Shown: positions 39,746 through 46,737 of the stretch, one piece after another
How positions within the stretch are numbered: the first letter of the stretch is position 1
How the letters are laid out: each line of letters starts with the position of its first letter
Source: Gammaproteobacteria bacterium
Lineage (GTDB): Bacteria > Pseudomonadota > Gammaproteobacteria > GRL18
DNA length: 64,000 nt
Reading direction: 5' to 3'
NCBI GenBank assembly: GCA_016744395.1
Contig: JADGEK010000011.1
Coordinates: 1-64,000 of the forward strand
The notes under the pieces: model-generated
Seen by the model: only the letters and a program-made list of their open reading frames with translations
Told to the model about the DNA's origin: nothing
The model's database searches: none
Position numbers and translations under genes: made by a program

Positions 39746-40198
39746 TTATGGGTTTTCCACAGCCAACAAAGCTGAAATCACATCATCTTCAAGGCTTATT
39801 CTATCGGCAAGTAACTCACCCACAGAATTCAAACAAGTCTCCAGCTTATCACAATCCAGGGCTGAGACATCACTATTATATTGATCATGAAAATCAAGTA
39901 TTTTTTGAGTATTATCAACAAGTTCTGGATAAACACTATCAGCAATTTTTAACACACTTTGACGGCGTTCTTTATTTTCTTCAAGGTAATTGTAGAGGTT
40001 AAAATGAGCTTTGGCGCTATAGTCAACCATGGATTCACAGAAATCTTCTAGTACTTCCTGGAGCGTTTCATTCATTTCAAATGGTTGATAAGACATCACC
40101 TCTTTGTATTGAGCCAGAGTTTCAGTTCGTGAATCCACCAAAGATTCAACGACATTACGTGACTGAACCCGACGTTCTTTTACTATTGTATCAACCAT
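39746..40198 (-). CDS. rsd: Rsd/AlgQ-family anti-sigma70 regulator
   Basis: DFCESMVDYSAKAHFNLYNYLEENKERRQSVLKIADSVYPEL. Confidence 0.88.
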   Translation of the reverse strand: MVDTIVKERRVQSRNVVESLVDSRTETLAQYKEVMSYQPFEMNETLQEVLEDFCESMVDYSAKAHFNLYNYLEENKERRQSVLKIADSVYPELVDNTQKILDFHDQYNSDVSALDCDKLETCLNSVGELLADRISLEDDVISALLAVENP

Positions 40199-40561: not shown

Positions 40562-41536
40562 ATGCCTAATTTTATTCAATCTGTCGATGAACGTACTAAT
40601 CTTGCAGGGACCAACAGGCTTGAAGTCCTACTGTTCAGCTTAGGAAAAGATGATTCAACAGAAAGACAGGAAGTCTATGGTATTAATGTTTTTAAAGTTC
40701 GTGAAGTCATGCAGGTTCCTGATATCACTCATGCACCCGACATGCCCAATTCGGTCGAAGGTATGACCAGTCTTCGCGGCACAATGGTACCTGTAGTCAA
40801 CCTCCCCAAATTTTGTGGCCTTAATATTTCTGATGAACCTCAAATTCTCATTGTGACCGAATATAACAAACACATGCAGGGCTTCTTAGTTCATTCTGTG
40901 GAAAATATCCTGCGCCTACAATGGAATGACATTAAAGTGCCGCCTCAAATGATGTCTGATCAACTGGGTGGGCTGGTCACTGCCGTCACCGAATTAAAAG
41001 ATGGCCGAATCGCCATGATCATGGATGTTGAAAAAGTATTAGCAGAAACGGCTCATTTTGCCCAGGAAGACTCCTATTATGAGGACATCTCAACCTTGGA
41101 AGATCAAGGCTACACAGTCATGTACGCTGATGATTCTTCAGTTGCCCGCTCACAAATTGAACGCACTTTAGATCACATGGGTATTGCTCATGTTAGCGCA
41201 ATGAACGGTTCAGAAGCCTGGACTAAACTCAAAGAAATAGCAACTCGGGCAGAAACCACAGGATTACCTGTTAAAGACTACATTCAAGCCATTTTAACAG
41301 ATGTCGAAATGCCTGAAATGGATGGTTATGTACTCACTAAACACATTAAAAATGATCCTCGTTTTGAGGGGATCCCCGTGATCATGCATTCCTCTTTATC
41401 TGCTGATGCTAATATGTCACTCGGACGAGGCGTCGGCGCTGATGCTTATGTGGCCAAGTTTGAGCCTAAAGAACTCTCAAATAAACTCGTGGAAATTTTG
41501 AACCATAAGACCAAAGCTCTGGAGAATAATTCTTAA
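40562..41536 (+). CDS. cheV: Chemotaxis protein CheV (CheW-REC)
   Basis: N-terminal CheW-like domain, C-terminal receiver AILTDVEMPEMDGYVLTKHIK. Confidence 0.93.
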   Translation: MPNFIQSVDERTNLAGTNRLEVLLFSLGKDDSTERQEVYGINVFKVREVMQVPDITHAPDMPNSVEGMTSLRGTMVPVVNLPKFCGLNISDEPQILIVTEYNKHMQGFLVHSVENILRLQWNDIKVPPQMMSDQLGGLVTAVTELKDGRIAMIMDVEKVLAETAHFAQEDSYYEDISTLEDQGYTVMYADDSSVARSQIERTLDHMGIAHVSAMNGSEAWTKLKEIATRAETTGLPVKDYIQAILTDVEMPEMDGYVLTKHIKNDPRFEGIPVIMHSSLSADANMSLGRGVGADAYVAKFEPKELSNKLVEILNHKTKALENNS

Positions 41537-41729: not shown

Positions 41730-43694
41730 TTGACTGCCACATTAACAAGAATTAAAATGTTAATAAGCTTAAAAGCACTTCCAGCAAAGCTAAATGTCTT
41801 CACACTTTTTTTGTTACTCACATTAAATTCTATTTTATCTACTCCTCTTCATGCGACATCTGAAGTCTCTGTTGAAACAATAAGCAAAACCAGTAATACT
41901 CTTGCAGAGTCTCAATCAGCAAACCAAAAAAAACAACAATTTACCATTGGGATACTGAGTCAAACACCACGAAAGTCAACCAAAGGAACCCCTTGGCAAT
42001 TCAGTTTTGACCGCTTAAACAGCCATCCAAAATTTCAGTTCAAAGCTCTTTTTTTAAACTCTCAAGAATTAACAAAAGCTTTAATCAATGATAGGCTTGA
42101 TTTTGTGATTTGCGATGCTATCAACTATTTAAGACTAGAAAAAAAGTATGGTATTTTACGCCTATTGACTCGAGCGGAACAATACTCTGACCAGTTTGTC
42201 AGTTCAGAAGGTTTATCAGTTCATACCCTGAGCAATAACTCTAATATTACTCGACTGCAAGACCTAAAAGACAAGAGCATTGGTGTCATTGATGATCGTT
42301 CATCTATTTCATGGCTTTTTTTAGAAAAATTTTTATTCAATCACGGCTTAATTGCTGATACGAACATTACGATTACTGCTATTTCAGATATTAATCAATC
42401 AATACCCTTATTACAGTCAAATACTTTTGATGCCATTATTTCAAAATCAGGCTTGATTGATAAATATTTCCCTCAAGGAAAAATTGATAACTTGAGACTC
42501 ATCAATCCTCGCAGAGGTTGGCAAGCTCCTTTTTTACATAGCTCTGTATTGATTCCTGAATGGCCCCTGGCAAAAGCCTGGTATGTTGATAATCAAATAG
42601 CCAGCCAGGTTGTTTCACTTTTACTGAATCAACACAATAGTCGCTCAAACAATTCAAATGCCTATTTCTTACCTCAATATTATTGGGACATTGCCCTAAA
42701 TTATAACGCCTTAAACGAACTCTTTTTTTTCTCTGAAAATTATGACGATGAAGCAGATACCGAAGAAAGTACATTGTCGCAAAAAGTACAGTACTGGATA
42801 AGTTTTATTATTATCTGTTTTTTAGTACTTATCCTGATTTTATACCTACGCTCTTCCAGGGATCTGAATAATAAATTGACACTCTCCAAAGAATCATTAG
42901 AACAGGAAATCAAAGAACGCCAGCATGCCCAGGAGCAAGCCTTAACACATCAGGCTGAACTCGCCCACGTAGCAAGACTCAGCACCATGGGAGAAATGGC
43001 TTCTGGTCTGGCTCATGAATTAAATCAACCCCTCTCGGCAATACACACTTATGTTCAAGGCTGTATACGCCGTATAAATATGGGAAATACTGATCTTGAC
43101 GCAATTGTAGGTGCTTTAAAATTAACAGCCCAGCAGGCCGATCGAGCAGGCGGAATTATTCGTCGTTTACGCAGTTTTGTGCGTAAAGGTGAATCACATA
43201 AAACCTATAGTGAAATCAACCAAATAGTCAATGAAGTCACAGGCTTTCTTGAAACTCAACTGAAAAATAAACAAGTCAGTCTAAAATTTGATCTGGAAGA
43301 GGATTTACCCCCCGTGCTTGCTGATATTATTCAGATAGAACAAGTACTTATTAATTTGTTGAAAAATGGTATTGAGTCTATGTCTAATATTGAGAAACCC
43401 GTTATAATGGTTTCAACTAGACGATTAGATCCAAAACTGATTGAATTATGTGTTATTGACAGTGGTCACGGAATCAGTGAAGATAAGCTCAAACGAATTT
43501 TTAATCCCTTTTTTACAACCAAAACTAGCGGAATGGGCATGGGATTGTCTATCAGTAGCTCAATAATTGAAGCTCATGATGGCAAGTTATATGCTGAAAA
43601 TAATCCCGAACAGGGGGCAAGATTTTGTTTAACATTGCCGATTACAGAAGAACCTATTATAGAAGAACAAGCAGGAAAGGATAATAATGAGTAA
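41730..43694 (+). CDS. TtrS-like sensor histidine kinase with periplasmic PhnD-like sensor domain
   Basis: FTIGILSQTPRKSTKGTPW sensor; TMGEMASGLAHELNQPLSAIHTYVQGC; GMGMGLSISSSIIEAHDGKL. ORF-track start may be a non-ATG codon. Confidence 0.9.
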   Translation: MTATLTRIKMLISLKALPAKLNVFTLFLLLTLNSILSTPLHATSEVSVETISKTSNTLAESQSANQKKQQFTIGILSQTPRKSTKGTPWQFSFDRLNSHPKFQFKALFLNSQELTKALINDRLDFVICDAINYLRLEKKYGILRLLTRAEQYSDQFVSSEGLSVHTLSNNSNITRLQDLKDKSIGVIDDRSSISWLFLEKFLFNHGLIADTNITITAISDINQSIPLLQSNTFDAIISKSGLIDKYFPQGKIDNLRLINPRRGWQAPFLHSSVLIPEWPLAKAWYVDNQIASQVVSLLLNQHNSRSNNSNAYFLPQYYWDIALNYNALNELFFFSENYDDEADTEESTLSQKVQYWISFIIICFLVLILILYLRSSRDLNNKLTLSKESLEQEIKERQHAQEQALTHQAELAHVARLSTMGEMASGLAHELNQPLSAIHTYVQGCIRRINMGNTDLDAIVGALKLTAQQADRAGGIIRRLRSFVRKGESHKTYSEINQIVNEVTGFLETQLKNKQVSLKFDLEEDLPPVLADIIQIEQVLINLLKNGIESMSNIEKPVIMVSTRRLDPKLIELCVIDSGHGISEDKLKRIFNPFFTTKTSGMGMGLSISSSIIEAHDGKLYAENNPEQGARFCLTLPITEEPIIEEQAGKDNNE

Positions 43695-44307
43695 TGATGC
43701 CATAGTTTTTATTGTGGACGATGATGAAGCAGTCAGACAATCAACAGCCTGGCTAATTGAATCAATTGGTTTAAAGGTAACCACATTTACTTGTGCTGAC
43801 GAGTTTCTAGAAAACTACAATAATGAGCCTGGCTGTATTGTCATGGATGTCAGAATGCCGGGTATGAGCGGACTGGAAGCACAGGAAGAAATGAAGAATC
43901 GAGGTATGACATTACCTCTCATCTTTATTACAGGTCATGGCGATGTTCCTATGGCTGTACGTGCTCTCAAACGGGGTGCATTTGATTTTATTGAAAAGCC
44001 ATTTAATGATCAGTTACTTCTTGATGCCGTGCAAAGAGGCCTTAAAAATAACAGTGAAGCAATGGAGTCTCTGATTCAAAATGAATCCATTGATAAGCGA
44101 ATCACTTCGCTGACACCAAGAGAGCACGAAGTCATGATGAGAGTCACTGAGGGTAAACCAAACAAAGTCATTGCCCATGAACTCAATGTCAGTATTAAAA
44201 CCGTTGAGGTTCATCGTGCTCGAATGATGGAAAAAATGGAAGCCACTTCTGTTGCTCAGCTTGTTAAAACCACTATTCAGGCACGACAAAATAATATTTT
44301 AGATTAA
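43687..44307 (+). CDS. FixJ/TtrR-like response regulator (REC-LuxR HTH)
   Basis: VFIVDDDEAVRQSTAWLIES, VMDVRMPGMSGLEAQ, LTPREHEVMMRVTEGKPNKVIAHELNVSIKTVEVHRARMM. Confidence 0.95.
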   Translation: MSNDAIVFIVDDDEAVRQSTAWLIESIGLKVTTFTCADEFLENYNNEPGCIVMDVRMPGMSGLEAQEEMKNRGMTLPLIFITGHGDVPMAVRALKRGAFDFIEKPFNDQLLLDAVQRGLKNNSEAMESLIQNESIDKRITSLTPREHEVMMRVTEGKPNKVIAHELNVSIKTVEVHRARMMEKMEATSVAQLVKTTIQARQNNILD

Positions 44308-44336
44308 TGCCTGGAAATAATAAATGCGATACAGCT

Positions 44337-44368
44337 TGTTTGACAATGGTTTGTAGCATTGTCAAACA
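44337..44368 (+). terminator. Hairpin downstream of response regulator
   Basis: tgtttgacaatg-gtttgtag-cattgtcaaaca, 12-bp perfect stem, weak T tract. Confidence 0.45.
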
Positions 44369-44473
44369 TAACCTTACTCAATTACCTTCATTCATTAACC
44401 CACCAATAACGTGGACGAGTTCACATAAACTCAAACAGACACCGTTACCACCCCTTTCTAATAAGTCTAAGTT

Positions 44474-44500
44474 ATTGTATTAATAGTATATTAATACAAT
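44474..44500. repeat. AT-rich perfect palindrome (operator-like)
   Basis: attgtattaata-gta-tattaatacaat. Confidence 0.8.
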
Positions 44501-44559
44501 TCAGGGTTTACCCCCAAATTTTTTACAACAGTCCCAATTATCTCCAGGTATATAATTCG

Positions 44560-44886
44560 GTAAAGTAACCATATTGAAGCAAAAGAATTGCATCAATAAT
44601 AACTATTTAAAAAAATAGAAAAACAGTGATGGAACACCCCTTTAGCCACTAAAAGACGCCATTAATCTATAGACGACAAAAATATAGATTACTAAGGTAA
44701 GGCAGCAGGGAAAGTAATAGCGATGCTATTGCAATAAAGGGATATCAATAAAAAAGACGAGGGATATACTTTTCTAAGGATGGAAACGAGTGATGGGGGA
44801 GGATGCTGTTTTTGTAAATAAAGCAGTTTCCAAGGCAATAGAGCGGACACAAAAATACATGTCAACTCTATTGCCTTTATTTTTTG
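44560..44886 (+). ncRNA. Candidate CsrB/RsmZ-type CsrA-sequestering sRNA (speculative)
   Basis: No ORF; nine GGA motifs on + strand (44631-44847); hairpin tttct-aaggat-ggaaa exposing AGGA; ends at a strong Rho-independent terminator. 5' end not defined. Confidence 0.4.
44832..44886 (+). terminator. Rho-independent terminator
   Basis: aaggcaatagag ... ctctattgcctt followed by tatttttt. Confidence 0.88.
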
Positions 44887-45079
44887 TTTATTTGGTCCAA
44901 CTTTAAGTTCACCTTTAAGTGTAACAATGCAGTTTAAAGGTACTCAATTTTGGGAGACAGTCTGTCGGTTAAAGTATCAACGTTCTAAAAAACACTGACA
45001 ACAAAATACCCTTTTCTTATTTCAATTTTTTTCTTATAAACTAGAAAAATACTCCATACGGAGATAGAGGGGAACATCA

Positions 45080-45409
45080 ATGAATAAGCGCTGGAATAAT
45101 AGAAAGCCTTCTTCAGTCAATCTGGTTATTAGCTATCCTGCTTTTGGCTTACTACGAGGAAAAGCGGTTAATATCAGTCATAATGGTATGTTTATCGAAA
45201 CTGCAGCAATATCACTATGTAATTATTCCGAAATAGAACTGACACTCATTTTGCCCGAATTGTCTGATTCACCTATCAATATTCAAGCAACCATTATTCA
45301 CAATACAGATAATGGTATTGGGGTTATGTTTCGAAATGAAGAAGATAATACGCTTGTAAATACTCTTCACCAATACGCCACAACCCCAGTTCACCAACAA
45401 GCAGTATGA
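45080..45409 (+). CDS. PilZ domain protein
   Basis: NRKPSSVNLVISY...GKAVNISHNGMFIET...IQATIIHNTDNGIGVMFRN. Confidence 0.85.
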   Translation: MNKRWNNRKPSSVNLVISYPAFGLLRGKAVNISHNGMFIETAAISLCNYSEIELTLILPELSDSPINIQATIIHNTDNGIGVMFRNEEDNTLVNTLHQYATTPVHQQAV

Positions 45410-45413
45410 ATGA

Positions 45414-45773
45414 TTAAGATTTATTCTTCTTTCTTTTTACTCGTAAACGCGTACCATGTTCAAGAGAAAGGAGCAGTTCTGAAGCTGAAATTTCAACAGG
45501 AAAATAGGTGCCTGAAATTTTAGCACCATTGATACTGGCACCATCTAATAATGAGCCTCTAAAATCAATTCCCCTTAGGTCTGACATTCTAAAATAAGCA
45601 CTTCTAAAATCCAGTCCAACTGCATCAATCCCTTTTAAATCCAGAGACCTAAAATCACATGACTTTAAATTACAATATTCACCCGCCTGTTTCTTAGCAT
45701 TAAATTCATCAATTTTTCCTTCTCGGATAAGTTGATACATGGGATCAGTTGAAATTTCTGGTGAATTGTTCAT
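45414..45773 (-). CDS. Pentapeptide repeat protein
   Basis: CDFRSLDLKGIDAVGLDFRSAYFRMSDLRGIDFRGSLLDGASINGAKI. Confidence 0.88.
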   Translation of the reverse strand: MNNSPEISTDPMYQLIREGKIDEFNAKKQAGEYCNLKSCDFRSLDLKGIDAVGLDFRSAYFRMSDLRGIDFRGSLLDGASINGAKISGTYFPVEISASELLLSLEHGTRLRVKRKKNKS

Positions 45774-45853
45774 TTTTCATACCTAATTGAATCGTATACT
45801 GGGAAACGGTTAATCAAACTTATCTACACTTTTATCTACACTTATAGTGTAGA

Positions 45854-46336
45854 CTATTTACCATTTATTTTCCTTGTCCTGGGCACATAACCCTCTGACC
45901 TAATAGCCACTCGGCAGGTGATTTGTGTACATAATTGTTCATCCTGATCATAAAAGGCATATTCAAAAACAGGGTTTGCTCGGCCTCTTTGCTGCATGTC
46001 TTGTTGAATTTTAAGTAATTGTTCATCCGAAAATTCAAATCGTAACTCCAAATCAGTACGCCCTTCACGGATGAAGTTTAATTGTAAGTTTCGAGTCCAG
46101 ACTTCACAGCCAGGAAAAGATTTCAAACAAGCCAGTGCCGCAATAGGATCAGCCAAAGAAGCCTGAAAACCACCAAACATCCCTCCTCCAGGATTTTTAG
46201 AAATTCTCGTCAGGGGCAACTTAATGCGAATATTTCGCCATAAGCGATCCATTTTTATTACTTTAATCCTCATTAACCAAAATGGTGGATACCAACTGAG
46301 ACGAGTTGCTGGTGAAAAAAATGAAATGAAAGACAT
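45854..46336 (-). CDS. DUF4442/PaaI-like hotdog thioesterase family protein
   Basis: NPGGGMFGGFQASLADPIAALACLKSFPGCEVWTRNLQLNFIREGRTDLELRF. Confidence 0.8.
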   Translation of the reverse strand: MSFISFFSPATRLSWYPPFWLMRIKVIKMDRLWRNIRIKLPLTRISKNPGGGMFGGFQASLADPIAALACLKSFPGCEVWTRNLQLNFIREGRTDLELRFEFSDEQLLKIQQDMQQRGRANPVFEYAFYDQDEQLCTQITCRVAIRSEGYVPRTRKINGK

Positions 46337-46560
46337 TAATTTGATATCCTCTCCATACTGACCATTTTATTATTATTATCAAAAATAATTCTAAAGCTGC
46401 CATTGACTCCTGACTGATCAACATGTTTTTGTAGAGCACTTGCTGGAAACTGAATGGTCTTTCCTCCAATGATGGTTACTAGTACAGAGTCTACTTCACC
46501 CTGATAATAACGCAGGTATTCCTGAGCACTAATTTCAAGTCGAAAACGAATTTCATTCAT
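46336..46560 (-). CDS. DUF2835-like small protein
   Basis: EYLRYYQGEVDSVLVTIIGGKTIQFPASALQKHVDQSGVNGSFRIIFD. Confidence 0.8.
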   Translation of the reverse strand: MNEIRFRLEISAQEYLRYYQGEVDSVLVTIIGGKTIQFPASALQKHVDQSGVNGSFRIIFDNNNKMVSMERISN

Positions 46561-46737
46561 CTAATACACACCATAGGAATACTATTGAGTTTTATCCATT
46601 GCATTATTTTAAAATATTTATCATTTTGTATTGTAATTTAGTTATTTTAGACTAGAATTCCATTATAAAAAATATGTCTATAAAAAAATAAATATTGTTC
46701 ATCATCCACTCAATTTACTCTGAAAGGAATACCGTAA

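Follow-up and report, generated by a model that had tools for sequence, protein, structure and literature searches.

The window analysed here is a 64-kb stretch of DNA from the MAG of an uncultured gammaproteobacterium, and all coordinates refer to it. On its plus strand a sensor histidine kinase gene and a gene for a FixJ/TtrR-like response regulator are followed by an intergenic gap and a PilZ-domain gene (Table 1). With the NCBIfam equivalog models the regulator scored 237 bits for FixJ (cut-off 255) and 191 bits for TtrR (cut-off 290), under the cut-off in both cases; the kinase scored 215 bits for TtrS (cut-off 750), in an alignment over 68-631 that takes in most of the protein length, and 257 for FixL (cut-off 850). 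We place the pair, as judged from these models, in the TtrSR/FixLJ superfamily and not among the TtrSR or FixLJ equivalogs. As the same genome carries two soxB genes, a sulfur signal is plausible for the kinase. On the other side of the kinase gene, an Rsd/AlgQ-type anti-sigma-70 gene (minus strand, 39746-40198) lies beside a CheW-receiver (CheV-like) gene (40562-41536).

No ORF in the gap is convincing: just two frames reach 50 aa, one of 58 aa (plus strand, 44307-44483) and one of 57 aa (minus strand, 44692-44865). The gap does contain a strong Rho-independent terminator with a 12-bp stem and a T-rich tail (-22.8 kcal/mol; none of 200 shuffles was as stable), located ~190 nt before the PilZ gene. 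Both features had been pointed out in a preliminary description of this DNA, which proposed a CsrB/RsmZ-like small RNA at 44560-44886. The 3′-end of that interval, set by the terminator, stands; the start is better moved to ~44573, because TAAAGT at 44561-44566 is a -10-like promoter element and not a part of the RNA. A generic scan for promoters and terminators missed the former, which has no -35 consensus, as well as the latter, whose loop is over the limit of the tool. With its own promoter, a Rho-independent terminator and no ORF, the region has the make-up of a gene for an sRNA of the CsrA-antagonist class, with the start site placed by conservation; we propose that a small RNA, ~44573-44886, is transcribed from it as a unit of its own and ends at the terminator.

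Table 1. Genes, predicted signals and RNA elements at the locus (window coordinates)
Feature	Coordinates	Strand	Basis
Sensor histidine kinase, periplasmic phosphonate-binding-type (PhnD) domain, TtrS/FixL-like	41730..43694	+	Pfam, NCBIfam
Response regulator, FixJ/TtrR-like, putative activator of RNA synthesis	43687..44307	+	Pfam, NCBIfam, synteny
Inverted repeat GTTTGACAATG...CATTGTCAAAC 3′ of the regulator gene, possible end of the regulator transcript	44338..44367	+	No T-run after it
AT-rich palindrome (12-3-12) adjoining the operator on its 5′ side, possible second operator	44474..44500	.	Similar in G008, degraded in other species
AGGGTTTACCCC, putative ThsR/TtrR-type operator, core GGGTTTACCC (44504-44513), centred at ~-64	44503..44514	+	Conserved, fixed spacing
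CCCAATTATC, conserved element near -35, 19 nt 3′ of the operator core	44533..44542	+	Promoter comparison
TAAAGT, conserved -10-like element	44561..44566	+	Promoter comparison among orthologues
Proposed CsrA-sequestering small RNA, ~314 nt, nine GGA	44573..44886	+	Conserved promoter (predicted start), terminator (end)
5′ hairpin with the loop AAGAA (AAGGA or AUGGA in G012, G008 and G015)	44574..44596	+	Fold z = -3.1; orthologues
GTGATGGAACA, block with GGA, retained by most orthologues of the genus	44626..44636	+	Sequence comparison
Hairpin UUUCU-AAGGAU-GGAAA, putative CsrA-type site with covarying closing pair	44771..44786	+	Sequence, orthologues
GATGGGGGAGGATG, conserved G-rich double GGA site	44792..44805	+	Orthologue comparison
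Rho-independent terminator	44832..44885	+	Fold; conserved in same-genus orthologues
Gene with a PilZ domain, 3′ of the RNA and separate from it	45080..45409	+	Pfam; absent 3′ of the RNA in G009, G011 and G014

The nine plus-strand GGA motifs reported earlier are found exactly where they were placed (44631, 44709, 44740, 44762, 44778, 44782, 44798, 44801 and 44845), the opposite strand is nearly free of GGA (one within 44573-44886), and the compact hairpin TTTCT-AAGGAT-GGAAA is there in the sequence at 44771-44786. The odds of such a count arising by chance had, however, been judged too generously. The GGA count of 44573-44886 ranks in the top 0.6% of equal-size windows of the 64 kb, and it compares with 6.5 expected (p = 0.13 by dinucleotide shuffles, p = 0.047 by mononucleotide shuffles); the longer motif A-N-GGA occurs six times against 2.8 expected (p = 0.04). 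Nor did the folding check proposed in the preliminary description help with this sequence: in the predicted ensemble of the full-length fold the unpaired probability of GGA was 0.47 vs 0.45 for other bases, and one clear local hairpin with GGA in its loop was seen where 0.8 would be expected. A condition named there as refuting, GGAs mostly buried in stems, thus applies in part to the minimum-energy fold of this sequence. A weak GGA excess together with a global fold that does not expose GGA would also suit a small RNA of some other kind, e.g. a base-pairing one, purine-rich and with incidental GGAs. Calling a Csr RNA from this single sequence would be a guess, for which single-sequence statistics and folding are insufficient; it takes the orthologues to make the case decisive.

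A DNA search of 57 genomes gave matches to the region in six further genomes of the same genus and a weak one in another genome of the family, seven in all. In the six same-genus genomes the syntenic RNA has kept both promoter and terminator. The matched blocks, 44503-44638 and 44740-44885, correspond to the promoter with the 5′-end and to the 3′-end of the RNA, while the middle turns over. Wherever contigs reach, the same FixJ-like regulator gene is found upstream, with PilZ and/or pentapeptide genes downstream. The RNA diverges fast, so that in sister species little persists beyond the promoter, the GGA motifs and the terminator. In the sister genus (G017, G020-G023) there is a longer counterpart of ~380-500 nt with 14-25 GGAs, the highest number being that of G023. 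A third genus of the family is represented by G016, where a GGA-rich stretch lies 3′ of the regulator gene.

The GGA counts of the G020, G022 and G023 orthologues were reached by none of 1000 shuffles. When 15 RNAs were pooled (they are related and hence not independent, and the one from G017 ends at a contig edge), GGA was counted 190 times vs 123.2 ± 6.9 expected and A-N-GGA 138 times vs 47.4 ± 6.0 expected. Hairpins with GGA within a 5-9-nt loop and a closing stem of at least 4 Watson-Crick pairs numbered 46 vs 15.3 ± 3.5, a roughly threefold excess; the exposure of GGA in loops thus holds for the orthologues taken together. Among 11 less redundant RNAs GGA ranked first of all 64 trinucleotides for over-representation (z = 6.0, the next one 3.3) and was also on top inside loops (33 vs 13.9, z = 5.2). 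Examples of such hairpins are AAGCAA-AUGGA-UUGCUU (G008), CUCCA-GGGAUA-UGGAG (G004), GGCU-UAAGGAUU-AGCC (G023) and GACC-UAGGAAU-GGUC (G016). In the counterparts of the hairpin at 44771-44786 the loop A-(A/U)-GGA is retained and the closing pair varies: U-G here, U-A in G004 and G008, C-G in most sister-genus orthologues as well as in G005. This covariation, read by eye because short automatic alignments shift the loop by one base, appears small but consistent.

These counts bear directly on the nature of the RNA. If GGA were incidental to a base-pairing or other small RNA, it would hardly be the most enriched trinucleotide both over the orthologues and within their loops, and antisense pairing could hardly be conserved at the speed with which the remaining sequence changes; such an RNA therefore appears quite improbable. 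That the gap is leftover intergenic sequence with no transcription is scarcely credible, since promoter spacing, terminator and GGA content have been conserved in spite of the rapid divergence.

The PilZ gene, found downstream in many species, raises another alternative: the transcript could be a long leader or attenuator that would control PilZ via regulated terminator read-through. G015 speaks for it: in this genome (L143) the RNA is shortened, the terminator is gone and the transcript unit leads straight into the PilZ gene, so that the operator-bearing promoter has apparently turned into a PilZ promoter with a short GGA-hairpin leader. In G009, G011 and G014, however, the RNA and its terminator persist with no PilZ gene behind them, and here a strong terminator stands well ahead of the gene. 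We consequently reject the leader as the main role and regard this alternative as improbable, about as much so as the base-pairing one.

Counter to our reading, not every genome keeps the locus in full. In G001, G007 and G010 the regulator gene is present with neither operator nor RNA 3′ of it, and G016 has the GGA-rich RNA and no operator. In the near-complete genome G013 (L097) genes resembling those of an insertion sequence (IS66-type by appearance) are located just 3′ of the RNA promoter, where the spacer is 18 nt; the RNA seems to be disrupted there.

The preliminary description had asked for a csrA gene and a GacA homolog, and both are present: a single csrA of normal sequence (86.7 bits) and an orthologue of gacA/uvrY that exceeds the NCBIfam cut-off. 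One or more copies of csrA were found in 22 of the 24 family genomes, with additional CsrA paralogues in G020 (up to five matches), G013 and G023. For BarA, no single match in the genome reached the cut-off; many hybrid kinases are present.

Csr RNAs are known to escape homology-based searches, and those studied well belong to a few groups, e.g. enteric bacteria, pseudomonads, vibrios and Legionella. Searches with Rfam at gathering and at permissive thresholds gave nothing above chance, from Csr or any other family, for the window, the region or ten orthologous loci, and neither CsrB (RF00018) nor PrrB_RsmZ (RF00166) was found in the genome as a whole. The likeness to CsrB/RsmZ is thus one of function, and the RNA is not to be filed in these sequence families. 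The functional class proposed earlier is supported in this form by the syntenic RNA with its retained GGAs, the loop enrichment, the promoter and terminator and the presence of csrA. We consider it very probable, from comparative evidence, that the RNA is a CsrB/RsmZ-type sponge, which would sequester CsrA via repeated A-N-GGA sites, several of them in hairpin loops.

With CsrB/CsrC of Enterobacteria and RsmX/RsmY/RsmZ of Pseudomonas it shares the intergenic location, the rho-independent terminator, many A-N-GGA motifs partly in loops, an upstream palindrome of the activating kind, fast divergence and a csrA gene in the genome. Unlike them, it has no Rfam match and no GacA-type upstream site, lies 3′ of a FixJ/TtrR-like two-component operon, and shows in this species no more than a single clear hairpin with GGA in the loop.

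The promoter tells more about control. Aligned promoters consist of AGGG-N4-CCC, 19 nt, CCCAATTA and a TAAAGT-like -10 element; the operator here reads AGGG-TTTA-CCCC. This module was found in 18 of the 24 family genomes, nearly always at this locus alone; the exceptions are a match in a coding sequence in G006 and a second match in the genome under study (C121), which looks like chance. In G019 the module is present on two contigs with identical sequence. It also occurs in distant Proteobacteria (L030 Thiohalomonas, L033, L035, L070), ~30-160 nt 3′ of the same regulator gene and with a spacing of 19 or 20. Outside the clade, three PWM matches exceeded 18 bits, vs 0-1 in 20 permuted-column controls.

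The published ThsR operator (PphsA) is TATGTGGTTTACCACAAT (PMC5408782), and the TtrR box is GTGG-N4-CCAC (PMC11293645). The layout is common to these and to our element, i.e. two inverted 4-base halves separated by N4, in the service of TtrR/ThsR-type regulators, which are FixJ-like; the N4 of the ThsR operator, TTTA, is identical to ours. Our element differs in the half-site, which is AGGG instead of GTGG, in the additional fixed CCCAATTA element 19 nt downstream, and in its target, an RNA gene. In geometry, and in the adjoining genes for a PhnD-domain kinase and a FixJ-like regulator, it agrees with an operator of the ThsR/TtrR/FixJ type, to which binding is predicted. As the promoter carries such a FixJ/TtrR-family operator, AGGG-N4-CCCC, the activator of RNA synthesis is most likely the adjacent regulator; granted that the RNA is a sponge, we judge this mode of control likely.

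The usual activator of Csr RNAs is GacA, and a GacA site upstream of them is typical, not universal. The preliminary description had hinted at control by GacA; no GacA box (TGTAAG-N6-CTTACA) is present at up to 3 mismatches within 43518-46720, and the promoter points to the adjacent response regulator instead. Since a gacA orthologue exists, GacA could still act via a diverged site, in which case the RNA would be an ordinary CsrA-sequestering one driven by GacA/UvrY and the two-component genes would be mere neighbours. The palindrome at 44474-44500 is left unexplained by our reading, and no other GGA-rich RNA driven by GacA was found in the genome: of ten GacA-box-like places (up to 1 mismatch) none is followed by a GGA-rich stretch, strand matches at this level number 20 vs 30 for the reversed control pattern genome-wide, and the sole perfect box (C191) has protein-coding starts on either side. 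Against GacA stand not only the missing box but also the conserved upstream AGGG-N4-CCC, with its match to the ThsR/TtrR operators, and the fact that in distant Proteobacteria, too, this element lies 3′ of the same regulator gene. We find GacA control unlikely, though less so than the leader and base-pairing alternatives above.

Control by something other than GacA would have precedents: Yersinia CsrC is activated by PhoQ/PhoP, and RsmW of P. aeruginosa, an RNA derived from a 3′ UTR, is not GacA-activated (PMC4950607). The regulators in these cases are different ones, and neither RNA is tied to a TtrSR/ThsSR/FixLJ-type system in that report. A literature search of incomplete coverage returned no report that connects a Csr RNA with sulfur sensing or with a system of the TtrSR/ThsSR/FixLJ type. 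What would be new at this locus is, judging from these comparisons, the unusual predicted input and an RNA outside existing Rfam families; the CsrB/RsmZ-like sponge function is known.

Our reading as a whole, a CsrA sponge under the adjacent two-component system, is one we favour as rather probable, with less assurance than either of its parts. The PhnD-domain kinase would sense a ligand, possibly a sulfur compound, and pass the signal to its partner regulator; the phosphorylated regulator would bind at ~-64 and switch on transcription of the RNA, which upon accumulation would titrate CsrA and release CsrA-bound mRNAs. If so, an environmental signal would be tied directly to CsrA, the cell's main RNA-level switch, and the Csr network would have been rewired, gaining a dedicated input by placement of a sponge gene behind the operator of the system. 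One could speculate further that the sponge is wired to a neighbouring ThsSR/TtrSR-like sensor of sulfur compounds, with a reduced-sulfur signal resetting the CsrA regulon; this clade of marine Gammaproteobacteria, probably sulfur oxidisers, would then have an input to Csr other than GacS/GacA. This narrower version is tentative, and we think it somewhat more apt to be wrong than right. The locus may in any case offer a family-wide example of a Csr RNA in these uncultured, probably sulfur-oxidising bacteria, and the stretches 3′ of AGGG-N4-CCC-N19-CCCAATTA modules are a possible place to search for further hidden Csr RNAs.

Two observations from more distant genomes concern the surroundings of the module. 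In L033, soxZ and soxB lie ~2-3 kb beyond it. In a Rhodocyclaceae MAG (L043), AGGG-N4-CCC-N19-CCCAATT-like modules on the minus strand (L043:3629 and L043:8200) precede a gene for methanethiol oxidase and another that is OsmC-like, which suggests a wider sulfur-linked regulon of this regulator family.
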